Positions 7,810 to 58,830 of a stretch of DNA of 64,000 bases are shown piece after piece; the first letter of the stretch is position 1, and each line of letters begins with the position of its first letter. Position numbers and translations under genes: made by a program. The stretch is taken from assembly GCA_002457215.1 (NCBI GenBank), contig NTJZ01000003.1, positions 1-64,000 of the forward strand, written 5' to 3'. The notes beneath the pieces are model-generated. The model was not told where the DNA came from and made no database searches. It saw only the letters and a program-made list of their open reading frames with translations. This stretch comes from OM182 bacterium MED-G28 (GTDB lineage: Bacteria; Pseudomonadota; Gammaproteobacteria; Pseudomonadales; Pseudohongiellaceae).

Positions 7810-8586
7810 GTGGAAGCTTCGAGTGCTATCAGAACTAACAGCGGGAAATTACTGCTTTCTGCAAAGGGAATAAGTAAAACTTTAGCTGATCGTCATATCC
7901 TGCAAAACATCGATCTAGAAATCCAAGAAGGGCAAATTATAAGTTTAATTGGGCCCAATGGAGCCGGAAAAACAACTCTTGTGAGAGTATTGTTGGGGCT
8001 ACTCACTGCAGATTTAGGGAACATCTACCATCGGCCTAAGTTGCGCATAGGCTACATGCCCCAACGACTCATGATTGAGAGCACACTGCCAATTACTGTC
8101 CGCCGTTTTCTGCGGCTAGCAACCCCCTCGTTTAACGATCGAATTGACGCGACGTTACAACAGCTGGAAATCAGTCAACTTGCCGAGCAACAACTGATTT
8201 CTGTTTCTGGAGGCGAACTACAGCGAGTGCTTCTCGCCAGGGCATTGCTTAGAAACCCCCATCTATTAATTCTGGACGAACCTGCTCAAGGGGTCGATAT
8301 TGCCGGCCAAGCAAAACTCTACGCATTAATTGGCAAGATTCGCAATCAGAATGGCTGCGGGGTTCTAATGATATCTCATGACTTGCACCTGGTAATGTCG
8401 TCAACTGATGAAGTAGTTTGTCTGAACCATCATGTTTGCTGCCATGGAAAGCCTGATCAAGTTAGTACTGATCCTGCTTTTCTCGAATTATTTGGCGCTC
8501 ATGTTTCAACCAATCTCGCAGTCTATACTCATCACCATAATCATGAACATGACATAACTGGCGAAGTAAAAACTTCTGAATCATGA
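7810..8586 (+). CDS. znuC: Zinc ABC transporter ATP-binding protein ZnuC
   Basis: The 258-residue ATPase of the zinc importer. Walker A is 'GPNGAGKTTL', the signature 'VSGGELQRVLLARALL', and Walker B 'LLILDEPAQG', with the switch histidine in 'MISHDLHLV'. The C-terminus is histidine-rich (THHHNHEHD), common in zinc-transport ATPases and possibly a metal sensor or buffer. The start is GTG. The stop overlaps znuB by 4 bp (ATGA), indicating translational coupling. Confidence 0.93.
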   Translation: MEASSAIRTNSGKLLLSAKGISKTLADRHILQNIDLEIQEGQIISLIGPNGAGKTTLVRVLLGLLTADLGNIYHRPKLRIGYMPQRLMIESTLPITVRRFLRLATPSFNDRIDATLQQLEISQLAEQQLISVSGGELQRVLLARALLRNPHLLILDEPAQGVDIAGQAKLYALIGKIRNQNGCGVLMISHDLHLVMSSTDEVVCLNHHVCCHGKPDQVSTDPAFLELFGAHVSTNLAVYTHHHNHEHDITGEVKTSES

Positions 8587-55406: not shown

Positions 55407-57242
55407 ATGTGTGGAATCGTAGGTGCAATCGCAGAAAGGAATGTGTCAGACATTTTGCTTGAAGGTCTGAAGCGTCTTGAATATCGCGGCTACGATTCGG
55501 CGGGTATCGCTTTGCTAAATAGCAATAGTGAGAAACTGAGTGATTTAAAAACTGTTGGAAAAGTTGAGAAGCTTGTTAAGTCTGCGACTAAAGCAAAGCT
55601 GAGAGGCAATCTAGGCATCGCACATACTCGTTGGGCCACTCATGGCAAACCAACGGTCGCGAACGCCCATCCTCACAATTCAGCAAAAGAATTATTCATT
55701 GCCCATAACGGAATTATAGAGAACTATCAAAGACTTAGAGCTATATTAAAAAAAGACGGCTACAGCTTTAAAACGGAAACAGACAGCGAAACGGTTGCTC
55801 ATTTAATTCATAAAGAGCGCAAAGGCGGCAAGGTAAGTTTGGTAGATGCCACCAGAAAAACCATTAGAAAACTCGAGGGCGCCTATGGTCTGTGCGTCAT
55901 TGATAAAACTCTCCCAGACCAAATCGTTGTTGCGCGAAGCGGTTCGCCCTTGGTGATTGGTATCGGTATTGGAGAGAACTTTGTGGCATCCGATCCGTTG
56001 GCTCTAGGCCAGGTTACTGACAGATTTATTTATCTTGAAGAAGGAGACGTCGCTAAAGTTACCCTAGACAATATAGAAATTTGGCATGACGGTGAAAAAG
56101 TTTCACGCTCAGTTACAACTGTAAAGTCTCGTACTAAAGATGCAGAGAAGGGCGAGTATAAACATTTTATGCTCAAGGAAATTTACGAGCAGGGAAAAGT
56201 GATCAAAGACACTTTAGATGGCCGTGTAAGCAAAACTAAAGTTTTGGAGCAGGCATTTGGTGTAAATGCAGACGAAATATTTGATAATGTTAAGAATGTG
56301 CAAATAGTTGCCTGCGGTACAAGCTTTCATGCCGGTCAGATAGCTAAATATTGGCTAGAGACGATTGCTAAAATTCCTTGTGCAGTCGATATAGCAAGTG
56401 ACTATAGATATCGTAATATAATCGTTCAACCTGGCACCCTATTTGTCACAATTTCCCAGTCAGGTGAAACTGCTGATACTTTAGCTGCGTTGCGCTATGC
56501 TAAGAAGAAACAATATGTAGCCAATCTTGCTATCTGTAACGTCGCCACTAGCTCCCTAGTTAGAGAATCGAATTTCTGTTTACTCACTATGGCCGGCCGG
56601 GAAATTGGTGTTGCCTCAACTAAAGCATTTACCACCCAGCTTGCTCTTCTTTTAATACTAGCCATTGTATTGGCGCGCAGAACTGGGCTTAAGCCAAGCC
56701 ACGAAGCTAAGCTAGTTAAGGAATTAGGCAAGCTTCCAACTTTAATTGATAAGGCACTGAACCTTAACAAAGAAATCAAGAATATTGCTAAGCAATTTTC
56801 CAACAAGAGCCATAGCCTTTTTCTGGGCAGAGGTATTCAATACCCGGTAGCAAAAGAAGGTGCATTAAAGCTCAAAGAAATTTCTTATATTCACGCCGAA
56901 GCCTATCCTGCCGGAGAGCTTAAACATGGCCCCTTGGCTTTGGTGGACAGCAAAATGCCTGTTATTGCTGTTGCCCCTAACAATGATTTGCTGGGAAAGC
57001 TTAGAGCAAACCTCTCTGAGGTAAGTGCACGGGGTGGGAAGCTATATGTATTTGCGCATGAAAGTATTAGCTTTGAAAGCGATAAAAGCTGCAAAGTAAT
57101 AAATGTCCCAAATTGTCCTGAAATTCTGGCTCCCATTGTCTTTACCGTACCGTTACAGCTCTTGTCCTATCACGTGGCGATTACGAAGGGCACAGATGTC
57201 GACCATCCCCGAAACCTAGCCAAGTCGGTCACGGTGGAGTAA
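55407..57242 (+). CDS. glmS: Glutamine-fructose-6-phosphate aminotransferase (isomerizing)
   Basis: It forms glucosamine-6-phosphate from fructose-6-phosphate and glutamine. The 611 residues have the N-terminal glutaminase with the Cys nucleophile (M-C-G-I-V-G), and two SIS domains ('CGTSFHAGQIAKYW', 'TISQSGETADTLAALR', 'FLGRGIQYPVAKEGALKLKE'). The C-terminus is 'HPRNLAKSVTVE'. The 3' end of this gene is also the starting point of the repeat array that follows. Confidence 0.97.
   Translation: MCGIVGAIAERNVSDILLEGLKRLEYRGYDSAGIALLNSNSEKLSDLKTVGKVEKLVKSATKAKLRGNLGIAHTRWATHGKPTVANAHPHNSAKELFIAHNGIIENYQRLRAILKKDGYSFKTETDSETVAHLIHKERKGGKVSLVDATRKTIRKLEGAYGLCVIDKTLPDQIVVARSGSPLVIGIGIGENFVASDPLALGQVTDRFIYLEEGDVAKVTLDNIEIWHDGEKVSRSVTTVKSRTKDAEKGEYKHFMLKEIYEQGKVIKDTLDGRVSKTKVLEQAFGVNADEIFDNVKNVQIVACGTSFHAGQIAKYWLETIAKIPCAVDIASDYRYRNIIVQPGTLFVTISQSGETADTLAALRYAKKKQYVANLAICNVATSSLVRESNFCLLTMAGREIGVASTKAFTTQLALLLILAIVLARRTGLKPSHEAKLVKELGKLPTLIDKALNLNKEIKNIAKQFSNKSHSLFLGRGIQYPVAKEGALKLKEISYIHAEAYPAGELKHGPLALVDSKMPVIAVAPNNDLLGKLRANLSEVSARGGKLYVFAHESISFESDKSCKVINVPNCPEILAPIVFTVPLQLLSYHVAITKGTDVDHPRNLAKSVTVE
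57225..57242 (+). repeat. glmS-tail repeat R1 (native glmS end)
   Basis: TCGGTCACGGTGGAGTAA encodes S-V-T-V-E-stop, the true end of glmS. Similar 18-mers recur at 57646, 57928 and 58416 in the same orientation. Compared with R1, R2 matches 14 of 18 bases and R3 15 of 18. Confidence 0.85.
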
Positions 57243-57246
57243 TTCA

Positions 57247-57259
57247 GAACAGTGAATAA
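57247..57259 (+). repeat. Cassette 1 inverted repeat, left arm
   Basis: GAACAGTGAATAA is the exact reverse complement of TTATTCACTGTTC at 57625-57637. It begins 4 bp after the glmS stop and includes the GTG start codon of the GFA gene. Confidence 0.8.
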
Positions 57260-57617
57260 TATCGTAGATGGAGGTTGTTTCTGTGGCACAGTTCGTTACA
57301 GTTTTGAATCCAACAATTATCCTTCTTCAAATTGCCACTGTTCGATGTGCAGACGTACCTCAGGGGCTGCTTTTGTTTCTTGGATGGCTATTCCAGTAAC
57401 TAGCTTTAAATTCAATAAAGGAGAGCCTAAAAAACTAGTTTCCTCTGATCATGGAACCAGATACTTTTGTAAAGAATGTGGAACTCACTTAACTTGTCTT
57501 CTTGATGAGTACCCTAAGTATGTCTATATCACAATTTGTAGCCTAGATAAGCCACAAGATTTTGAACCAAAAGGAGATATGTACGTTGAAGATATGCTTG
57601 ATTGGGTTAAAAGATAA
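57252..57617 (+). CDS. GFA/CENP-V domain protein (glutathione-dependent formaldehyde-activating-like)
   Basis: A 121-residue zinc-binding protein of the GFA family. Zinc cysteines are in 'GGCFCGTVRYSF', 'CHCSMCRRTSGAAFVSWM' and 'FCKECGTHLT'. Members are linked to glutathione adducts, but most are uncharacterised, so substrate is unknown. The start is GTG at 57252, with no good ribosome site of its own; the nearest GGTGGAG is the glmS tail 12 bases upstream, so translation may be coupled to glmS. It sits between glmS-tail repeats R1 and R2 and inside a 13-bp inverted repeat, so it was probably acquired. Confidence 0.85.
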   Translation: MNNIVDGGCFCGTVRYSFESNNYPSSNCHCSMCRRTSGAAFVSWMAIPVTSFKFNKGEPKKLVSSDHGTRYFCKECGTHLTCLLDEYPKYVYITICSLDKPQDFEPKGDMYVEDMLDWVKR

Positions 57618-57624
57618 TGAAGTT

Positions 57625-57637
57625 TTATTCACTGTTC
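57625..57637 (-). repeat. Cassette 1 inverted repeat, right arm
   Basis: TTATTCACTGTTC pairs perfectly with 57247-57259. It lies 7 bp after the GFA stop codon and 8 bp before glmS-tail repeat R2. Confidence 0.8.
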
Positions 57638-57645
57638 CAAAATAC

Positions 57646-57663
57646 TCCGTTACGGTGGAATGA
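57646..57663 (+). repeat. glmS-tail repeat R2
   Basis: TCCGTTACGGTGGAATGA reads S-V-T-V-E-stop in the glmS frame. All four differences from R1 are at third or stop positions that keep the meaning (TCG/TCC, GTC/GTT, GAG/GAA, TAA/TGA). No glmS gene precedes it. Confidence 0.8.
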
Positions 57664-57675
57664 TTTTGTATGTAA
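57663..57675 (+). repeat. Cassette 2 inverted repeat, left arm
   Basis: ATTTTGTATGTAA is the exact reverse complement of TTACATACAAAAT at 57912-57924. It begins on the last base of repeat R2 and ends 6 bp before the ATG of the 73-residue gene. Confidence 0.8.
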
Positions 57676-57681
57676 AACTTT

Positions 57682-57903
57682 ATGAATAAATTGAGTAACC
57701 TTAATATTTTTTTAATTTGGGTTTTTGGTTTTTTTGTTCTCCTATCTTTTGATTTATTTGTAGAAGGTTTTGTATTTGAATGGTTGGAATGGAATGGTAC
57801 AAACAAGAATGACTGGTTTTTTGTTCTTTGGTGGGGTTTGGTTGTTGTTTGGTTTTTAAAAGGTTCAATATCTTTATATCAAAGACTAAAAAATGATGAA
57901 TAA
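57682..57903 (+). CDS. Small membrane protein of unknown function, 73 aa
   Basis: I do not recognise this protein. It has two hydrophobic segments (about 9-30, FLIWVFGFFVLLSFDLFVEGF, and about 45-60, WFFVLWWGLVVVWFL) separated by a polar loop with 'NGTNKNDW', and a short basic tail. It is very rich in Phe, Trp and Leu, and its DNA is T-rich compared with the housekeeping genes. It exactly fills cassette 2, between glmS-tail repeats R2 and R3 and inside a 13-bp inverted repeat, which supports it being a real unit. No clear ribosome site precedes it except GGTGGA in R2. Confidence 0.55.
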   Translation: MNKLSNLNIFLIWVFGFFVLLSFDLFVEGFVFEWLEWNGTNKNDWFFVLWWGLVVVWFLKGSISLYQRLKNDE

Positions 57904-57911
57904 GAAAACCG

Positions 57912-57924
57912 TTACATACAAAAT
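57912..57924 (-). repeat. Cassette 2 inverted repeat, right arm
   Basis: TTACATACAAAAT pairs perfectly with 57663-57675. It lies 8 bp after the stop of the 73-residue gene and 3 bp before repeat R3. Confidence 0.8.
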
Positions 57925-57927
57925 AAA

Positions 57928-57945
57928 TCCATCACGGTGGAATAA
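57928..57945 (+). repeat. glmS-tail repeat R3
   Basis: TCCATCACGGTGGAATAA reads S-I-T-V-E-stop, and the codon before it is AAA (Lys), matching K-S-V-T-V-E of GlmS. It matches R1 and R2 at 15 of 18 bases each. Confidence 0.8.
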
Positions 57946-58060
57946 AAAGACTTTATCTAAGCAAAGTTAATGCTATTGAATTAGCTTCAAACATAGTTTA
58001 CTTGCTAGATTCCAATATCAATGTAAACGATCATACAAATCCAATAAAGAAGGTGGAATT

Positions 58061-58390
58061 ATGACTAATATGGAAAAATTGCAGGCAGCGTGGGATGCCA
58101 AGGACTTAGATGGCGTGAAAGCCATGTTTACGGAAGACGCAGTAATGATAATGCTTCATGAGAACAGAACCTTAAGGGGAGTAGAAGTCGAGGAAGAGCT
58201 TACTGCAATGGTTCTCGATGAAGATACTGTATCGTCTGAATTCAGAATCATATACGAAAATGATGAATGCGCAGTAACTCGTGAAAGAATTGCTGGACAA
58301 TTCTTTGGCGGACAAGTCTCTATAGTGCAGCTCTGGCGCGATGGGCAGATTTATCATATGGAAACAAGTTTGATTAAAGACAATACATAA
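58061..58390 (+). CDS. NTF2-like (SnoaL-type) protein
   Basis: A 109-residue cone-shaped-fold protein of the NTF2-like superfamily: 'LQAAWDAKDLDGVKAMFTEDAVM' followed by alternating strands ('EFRIIYENDECAVTRERIAGQFFGG', 'IVQLWRDGQIYHMETSLI'). Members include ketosteroid isomerase-like enzymes and binding proteins; the role here is unknown. It has a good ribosome site (AAGGTGG). It lies in cassette 3, between repeats R3 and R4. Confidence 0.8.
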   Translation: MTNMEKLQAAWDAKDLDGVKAMFTEDAVMIMLHENRTLRGVEVEEELTAMVLDEDTVSSEFRIIYENDECAVTRERIAGQFFGGQVSIVQLWRDGQIYHMETSLIKDNT

Positions 58391-58403
58391 TTTTGCTTCT
58401 AAT

Positions 58404-58436
58404 GCCTTATTCCACTCCTTAACTTTGGAATAAGGC
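58404..58436. repeat. Perfect 11-bp hairpin enclosing glmS-tail-like repeat R4
   Basis: GCCTTATTCCA (58404-58414) and TGGAATAAGGC (58426-58436) pair perfectly around an 11-base loop. No T-run follows, so it is not a classical terminator. It contains R4, TCCTTAACTTTGGAATAA (58416-58433), reading S-L-T-L-E-stop, 14 of 18 bases like R3. Its left side (TTATTCCAC, 58407) also pairs with GTGGAATAA at the end of R3, giving cassette 3 a 9-bp inverted repeat. Confidence 0.6.
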
Positions 58437-58469
58437 CCATTACAAAAGCGATAAAGAAAATGGCAAATA

Positions 58470-58510
58470 GGCGCTAGACGACTTAAATTAAGTCACTGAT
58501 GTCTCGCGCC
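58470..58510. repeat. Compound palindrome downstream of the ABM gene
   Basis: The outer arms GGCGCTAGAC and GTCTCGCGCC pair at 9 of 10 positions. Inside lies a second perfect palindrome GACTTAA-A-TTAAGTC. On the minus strand it lies just after the ABM-domain gene, so it may end that transcript, but only a weak T-rich stretch follows. It could also be a structured recombination or REP-like element. Confidence 0.5.
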
Positions 58511-58536
58511 ACTGTAATCTAGAGTCAAAGCAAAAT

Positions 58537-58830
58537 CTAAAGTTCAAGATTCACAGAGAGAAACCTGAAGACTGGATCGGCGGCCAGAAAATCGCCTAAA
58601 GTAACTAAGTCTCCTGACTCATCCCTCCAATTCAAATAATCATCATAGTGAGACTTGCTCTCCCACTTACTTACGACTTCAATTGCATCAGCGTCTCCTT
58701 CTAATGAACAACAGTATAATCCTGAACAGCCTTGATATGAGCGAGTGTCGGGTAGAATAGAATGGAACCATTCTAGAAATTCTTTGTGAACTTCTGGTTT
58801 AATCTTTAACTGTAAATTAACAAGAATCAT
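58537..58830 (-). CDS. Antibiotic biosynthesis monooxygenase (ABM) domain protein
   Basis: A 97-residue ferredoxin-like alpha+beta barrel protein: 'VNLQLKIKPEVHKEFLEWFHSILPDTRSYQGCSGLYCC', then 'EVVSKWESKSHYDDYLNWR'. Family members are cofactor-free monooxygenases or heme/quinol-related proteins; the substrate is unknown. A ribosome site (TAGGAGATA) precedes the ATG. It is opposite in strand to the cassettes and has no detectable glmS-tail repeat beyond it. Confidence 0.82.
   Translation of the reverse strand: MILVNLQLKIKPEVHKEFLEWFHSILPDTRSYQGCSGLYCCSLEGDADAIEVVSKWESKSHYDDYLNWRDESGDLVTLGDFLAADPVFRFLSVNLEL

Follow-up and report, generated by a model that had tools for sequence, protein, structure and literature searches.

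Among bacterial platforms that gather single-gene cassettes into ordered arrays of one orientation through folded sites, integrons are, to our knowledge, the only well-known one. Tycheposons, like the genomic islands that tyrosine integrases place at the ends of tRNA or other genes, insert site-specifically into the 3′ end of a gene and restore that gene; both kinds encode their own integrase and have one attP sequence. Elements that exploit Xer, such as the CTX phage, present a folded single-stranded attP to a host tyrosine recombinase. The system considered here lies behind glmS in a 64,000-nucleotide stretch of DNA from OM182 bacterium MED-G28 (positions 1 to 64,000 of contig NTJZ01000003.1, GenBank assembly GCA_002457215.1), called the window below; its genome is G000, and other genomes and loci carry G and L numbers. 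The explanation that fits best, and a likely one, is that two mobile gene cassettes have entered the 3′ end of glmS by site-specific insertion and form a short array there.

The units behind glmS differ from the islands and tycheposons in being without an integrase and in having many arm families, and their site is presumably like that of the Xer-exploiting elements in forming a hairpin, and perhaps also in being served by a tyrosine recombinase of the host, though presumably neither dif-like nor at the replication terminus. The likeness to integrons, including clusters of attC sites lacking integron integrases (CALINs), is closer: cassettes of one gene and no promoter stand in arrays, mostly oriented alike and with similar cargo; each cassette has a site of its own, an imperfect palindrome constant in architecture and variable in sequence; and new ones enter next to a fixed site that has a promoter upstream. 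In contrast to integrons, there is no integron integrase, the R boxes of attC (RYYYAAC/GTTRRRY) occur in 1 of 93 junctions, the coding end of glmS serves as the fixed site and is rebuilt by every insertion, the tip of the cassette site is constant and its stem variable, and exchange is at the dyad centre. The glmS arrays work like an integron, but by integrase, by R boxes and by position of exchange they fall outside that class.

The same conserved coding end is the target of the Tn7 family, where TnsD reads the 3′ codons of glmS at attTn7 (PMC2918618). Tn7, however, brings tnsABCDE with it and lands downstream of glmS, making a short duplication, whereas the glmS cassettes exchange inside the last codons and are mostly of 0.15–2 kb; Tns proteins were not noticed among their cargo, in which no search aimed at Tns was made. 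No paper describing glmS cassettes was found in a literature search that left preprints and most subscription papers outside. On balance we favour a system of gene capture separate from integrons: the end of glmS would be the entry site and its operon the expression source for circular cassettes with structure-defined sites (variable stems, constant tip), served by an unrecognised recombinase and widespread in SAR86 and related marine bacteria. If so, it is a second platform, with different sites, without the integron enzyme and with an essential housekeeping gene as entry, and the capture of cassettes has more than one evolutionary origin. Such a platform would further be a mechanism by which genes turn over rapidly in certain ocean bacteria that are among the most abundant and streamlined and are otherwise poor in mobile elements. 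It would also give a clear start to the search for a recombinase with a new activity.

In the window, glmS (55407–57242; all features given here are on the forward strand) is an open reading frame (ORF) for 611 amino acids whose best match is glmS of relatives and whose last codons are the insertion site. There are three tails, at 57222, 57643 and 57925, and in the correct frame all of them encode S-(V/I)-T-V-E-stop. Site 1, the present glmS end, is TCGGTCACGGTGGAGTAA (57225–57242; TCG GTC ACG GTG GAG TAA), with the exchange core GTCACGGT at 57228–57235; site 2 is TCCGTTACGGTGGAATGA (57646–57663; TCC GTT ACG GTG GAA TGA), with the core GTTACGGT at 57649–57656; and site 3 is TCCATCACGGTGGAATAA (57928–57945; TCC ATC ACG GTG GAA TAA, S-I-T-V-E-stop), with its core at 57931–57938. 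Site 3, which abuts the native downstream sequence, is the oldest tail of the array. A fourth tail in the same genome (contig C18) was rejected as a chance match; it sits within a coding gene. With cassette ends set between the A and the C that flank the dyad axis, cassette 1 (57232–57652, 421 bp) carries a GFA-family gene (57252–57617) for a protein of 121 amino acids with the GFA domain (PF04828, E = 1e-25), and cassette 2 (57653–57934, 282 bp) an ORF (57682–57903) for a membrane-type protein of 73 amino acids that has no match in Pfam. Rfam gave no match.

An earlier note, made from the letters of this stretch alone, had reported a perfect 13-bp inverted repeat in each cassette and had judged chance a very unlikely source; both points proved sound. 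In cassette 1 the right arm GAACAGTGAATAA (57247–57259) has its reverse complement in the left arm TTATTCACTGTTC (57625–57637), and in cassette 2 the right arm ATTTTGTATGTAA (57663–57675) is matched by the left arm TTACATACAAAAT (57912–57924). About 8e-6 perfect 13-bp pairs are expected in each case between two 25-nt segments of the local composition, and the longest in 20,000 random trials was 11. The pairs are in fact longer than 13 bp, because the tails' own GGAGTA/TACTCC and TGGA/TCCA pair too: that of cassette 1 extends to 24 nt at 88% (57236–57259 with 57625–57648) and that of cassette 2 to 20 nt at 90% (57656–57675 with 57912–57931). The arms of each cassette stand hundreds of bases apart. 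Ordinary local terminators, which would have accounted for them otherwise, do not: the sole terminator-like match (1.0 expected by chance) lies elsewhere and none is on the arms. As single-stranded DNA the joined ends of cassette 1 give −15.7 and −17.0 kcal/mol (top and bottom strand; z = −7.1 and −8.0) and those of cassette 2 −12.8 and −11.1 kcal/mol (z = −4.8 and −4.1), though the window junctions fold well because any inverted repeat must.

Other glmS-linked units also have a cassette-specific pair of arms at a fixed position, non-identical from unit to unit and complementary within it, and homologous units do not lack the repeats, so that the covariation expected of a private stem is found. 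In the 93 cassettes with distinct arms, a cassette's own left and right arms pair at 11.40 of 17 positions, as against 7.56 ± 0.24 with shuffled partners (maximum 8.31 in 2000 shuffles, a value not to be taken as a probability, since the cassettes are related and one arm family dominates). The pairing works in a single register (11.4, against 4.2–6.0 in adjacent ones). That register is shared by all 62 strong cassettes, and its axis falls between the A and the C of GTnACnGT. By distance from the axis, pairing is 66–95% at 12 to 28 nt and low at 10–11 nt; further in, A-n-T-C and G-A-R-T again pair highly, leaving some ten bases unpaired at the tip. The strong arms make up about ten sequence families that are unrelated to one another, and CTGTT/AACAG accounts for 43 of 59. 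The notion that each cassette's arms are private to it is thus right only in part: those of cassette 2, TTTTGTATGTAA, are of a rarer family that recurs in SAR86 (L242, L259 and L219 have its left arm family), whereas those of cassette 1 belong to the commonest.

The site of exchange can be placed by comparing alleles. In G063, an empty allele, glmS ends AAATCAGTTAC|TGTGGAGTAATTCAGAATAG, and exactly at the bar the filled allele of G123 has a 210-bp cassette with a small ORF of its own, the flanks being 93–96% identical; the new cassette of this pair is the glmS-proximal one. Finer mapping used the wobble positions of 8 near-identical cassettes in different genomes. At the cassette 5′ end, the numbers of the 8 that differ are 4, 5 and 5 at −8, −5 and −2, then 4, 1 and 0 at +2, +5 and +8; at the 3′ end they are 0, 1 and 3 at −8, −5 and −2, then 5, 6 and 5 at +2, +5 and +8. 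The cassette-side wobbles +5, +8, −5 and −8 therefore travel with the cassette (0–1 differences of 8), whereas +2 and −2 (4 and 3 of 8) resemble the outside neighbour sites (4–6 of 8). This pattern places exchange within the 8-bp GTnACnGT centred on the axis. Since +2 and −2 are not kept with the cassette, the 2-bp overlap of a serine recombinase does not fit and the 6–8-bp overlap of the tyrosine type does. The earlier note had likened the site to attC. The junction is indeed arm′-tail-arm, with variable stems around a conserved core, but exchange is at the dyad centre and not at the stem base as in attC.

Exchange so placed lies inside the T-V codons of the tail, and the arriving cassette supplies glmS with a new stop codon. 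The tails are coding-compatible and differ mainly at synonymous positions because each insertion supplies a new V-E-stop to glmS. Inverted ends inside direct repeats are also what a small transposon would show, with the tails as target-site duplications. Ageing duplications, however, would differ at random rather than synonymously, the end sequences here vary among elements, insertion is essentially only at glmS, and the commonest Pfam families of the cargo proteins examined include no recognised transposase; we consider such transposons very improbable.

The units also move between genomes. A genome of nearly the same species, G113 (glmS 99% identical), matches the window genome at 95.2% over 2069 bp downstream, including the SnoaL gene at 58061, yet despite these shared flanks the cassettes at its tail (L033) are unrelated and cassette 1 is absent. 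A cassette 94% identical to cassette 1 stands at the same position in G120 (L064), and the cassette 2 gene has a relative with the same right-arm start in a SAR86 locus (L254, around 8165–8450). More generally, near-identical cassettes are found in different genomes with different neighbours. These comparisons support the view that the units are mobile cassettes exchanged at the glmS tail, and to that extent, which is a partial one, they support the interpretation of the earlier note.

Arms that act in RNA, the ends of a transcript pairing to protect or insulate it, offer another account, with movement due only to homologous recombination at glmS. The arms would pair in sense RNA too, and homologous recombination can move cassettes within a species. 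Such an account leaves unexplained the fixed axis inside the exchange core and the sharing of cassettes between distant lineages, and the sense strand shows no excess of G-U pairs (22 G-T mismatches vs 46 A-C), so that we regard it as scarcely credible. For DNA, tests of which strand is recognised lean weakly and in disagreement, mismatches towards the bottom strand, where the favoured pairs would be G-T (p 0.02–0.2 by redundancy filter), and energies towards the top strand (p 0.07). We hypothesise recognition of the site as a single strand, for which the variety of arm sequences is the best support.

For mobile cassettes, the following course may be proposed. Each cassette is a unit reaching from one glmS-like tail to the next, with complementary arms of its own, and its mobile form would be a circle whose joined ends read arm′-ANTCN-GTNACNGT-NGARTR-arm. 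This joined-end site, an imperfect palindrome of 56–60 nt, could fold into a hairpin with a variable stem and a constant tip. A recombinase with a 6–8-bp overlap, of the tyrosine type and either supplied in trans or the host's Xer, would recognise the constant core together with the folded or symmetric arms. In the one filled and empty pair available, the arriving cassette entered next to glmS; an arriving cassette replaces the last two codons and the stop by synonymous ones and pushes the old glmS end downstream. Cassettes would then be expressed by read-through from glmS, which is the likely source of expression because no promoter-like sites were found in 57000–58600, where 4.8 are expected by chance.

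Several points weigh against this. The earlier note had proposed looking for a linked recombinase gene in genomes with longer arrays; none of the arrays has a recombinase linked to it. For full-length tyrosine recombinases (PF00589), the usual number in SAR86 carriers is just two, of about 300 amino acids and apparently XerC and XerD; of the SAR86 genomes searched, one only has a serine recombinase (PF00239); the Y1 transposase PF01797 is in none of 19 tested carriers outside the window's genus, and the IS110 DEDD transposase PF01548 in none of 28 carriers. Within that genus, the tested carriers are without a match of XerC/D strength. The preponderance of one family among the strong arms means that part of the arm conservation may reflect protein-DNA recognition, and arms are weak in about a third of cassettes. 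The exchange map comes from 8 pairs, three involving one cassette, and is good rather than overwhelming. All data are from draft genomes, metagenome-assembled genomes (MAGs) and single cells.

No resident recombinase among integron integrases, serine recombinases, Y1 and IS110 proteins is common to carriers; a Xer enzyme does the work, or else the recombinase comes in trans. In the families tested, the window's own genome has no integron integrase (TIGR02249); it has a 416-aa XerC-like tyrosine recombinase beside prc, one serine recombinase and a Y1-type protein 28 kb from the array. Use of the glmS tail as a pseudo-dif by host Xer (XerC/XerD in SAR86, the divergent XerC-like enzyme in the window's genus) draws on several of these facts: XerC/D-like enzymes are essentially the sole recombinases found in SAR86 carriers, the 416-aa protein scores 64 bits to TIGR02224, and the inferred overlap, 8 bp at most, is of a length suited to a tyrosine recombinase. 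Yet the two lineages differ greatly in their Xer enzymes and nonetheless share cassettes, Xer arms are sequence-specific where cassette arms vary, and the exchange core is, we take it, unlike dif. We therefore hold this explanation unlikely. The XerC-like gene, of 400–416 amino acids, is at G000:C1:52704-53954 (L163:2205-3455) and stands beside prc in many genomes of the genus; since the tested carriers there have no match of XerC/XerD strength, it may be the chromosome dimer resolvase. As the enzyme of the arrays it was rejected, being a syntenic gene not linked to arrays, and it has no relative in the PDB by sequence.

Other candidates were rejected likewise. The serine recombinase of 231–250 amino acids is conserved in the window's genus, but only one searched SAR86 genome has any, and a 2-bp overlap would be too narrow for the exchange region. 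That gene (L189:1480-2175; G000:C1:148817-149278) is single-copy in most carriers of the genus and reads KLERIVSS where active enzymes usually read K-DR--RS. Y1 and IS110 transposases are absent from SAR86, and a P4-type integrase between glmS and rpiR in G101 is at a locus with no second tail. A recombinase carried as cargo was dismissed too, none being recognised among the 25 commonest of 82 Pfam families of the cargo. As a separate observation, the MAG TMED44 (G164:C5; L246, L248, L249) has a 15.5-kb contig of apparently three tandem units of about 5 kb with a serine and a tyrosine recombinase, the unit possibly being a small circular element.

Cassettes are from 73 to 2,318 bp long (median 486 in the first set) and mostly have one gene; in a wider set, 89 of 101 ORFs are on the glmS strand. 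Their cargo is highly varied, comprising GFA, SnoaL, beta-lactamase fold, HIT/HNH and acetyltransferase proteins, type I and II restriction systems, a short-chain dehydrogenase and unknown membrane proteins. Integron-like size, one gene each, a shared orientation and cargo such as GFA, SnoaL, small membrane proteins and restriction systems would suit a CALIN, a remnant of an integron, with IntI acting in trans to move its cassettes, and IntI genes do lie about 2.3–3 kb beyond glmS in G057, G083, G087 and G089, with a broken one in G071. However, these four genomes with an intact linked IntI have no glmS array, no glmS-type site is near the IntI loci examined except at the broken one, the window's own genome has no IntI and SAR86 carriers have no tyrosine recombinase to spare. 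The scarcity of R boxes and exchange at the dyad centre, not within the R box, also tell against a remnant, which we judge quite improbable; IntI was on the same grounds rejected as a resident enzyme. In all five of these genomes (G087, G089, G057, G083 and G071; L152, L156, L159, L147 and L113) the IntI gene beyond glmS points back at it, and in G071 the broken gene follows rpiR and a FemAB-like gene and adjoins a glmS-type array.

In the family of the window genome, glmS was found in 133 of 137 genomes and the sequence 3′ of it was taken for about 80. At least 17 genomes of the window's genus have extra tail copies behind glmS, with differences mostly at third codon positions; other genomes have one tail and no cassette. 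Matches to the arm-plus-tail pattern lie almost exclusively behind glmS, and a reversed control pattern gave 1 match in the 137 genomes. Across the genome collection, the pattern CTGTT-N7-ACTC-nGTnACnGTn-GARTR (about 2 chance matches estimated) matched at 42 loci, mostly of SAR86 and otherwise of SAR92, Porticoccaceae, Pseudohongiella, one Woeseia bin and a few otherwise labelled bins that may be mis-binned. Most have several tails, with up to seven consecutive ones behind atp-glmU-glmS. Besides the 17 or more relatives, the system is in about 30 further genomes, mainly marine SAR86. It is not general, since an even sample of 369 Gammaproteobacteria added one true case only. Carriage by viruses was rejected, the sole viral match being a capsid gene that encodes N-S-V-T-V-E-W by chance.

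Some array features stand apart. Small cassette-type genes run on for at least 10 kb past the recognisable array in seven SAR86 loci (L250, L254, L258, L259, L261, L263, L265); several of the genes past the last tail are common to different genomes, some with decayed tails. At L258:7468-7870, L259:697-1087 and L115:138-474 (all in glmS orientation), larger cassettes, one of them with a restriction system, contain a small ORF that has a helix-turn-helix of recombinase type (EGLGYRKIS-type motif) and no catalytic domain. At L036 (G088; tails at 196 and 410, glmS orientation), glmS codons for N-L-A-K, instead of a cassette arm, precede the second tail, as if a longer piece of the glmS end had been carried along.
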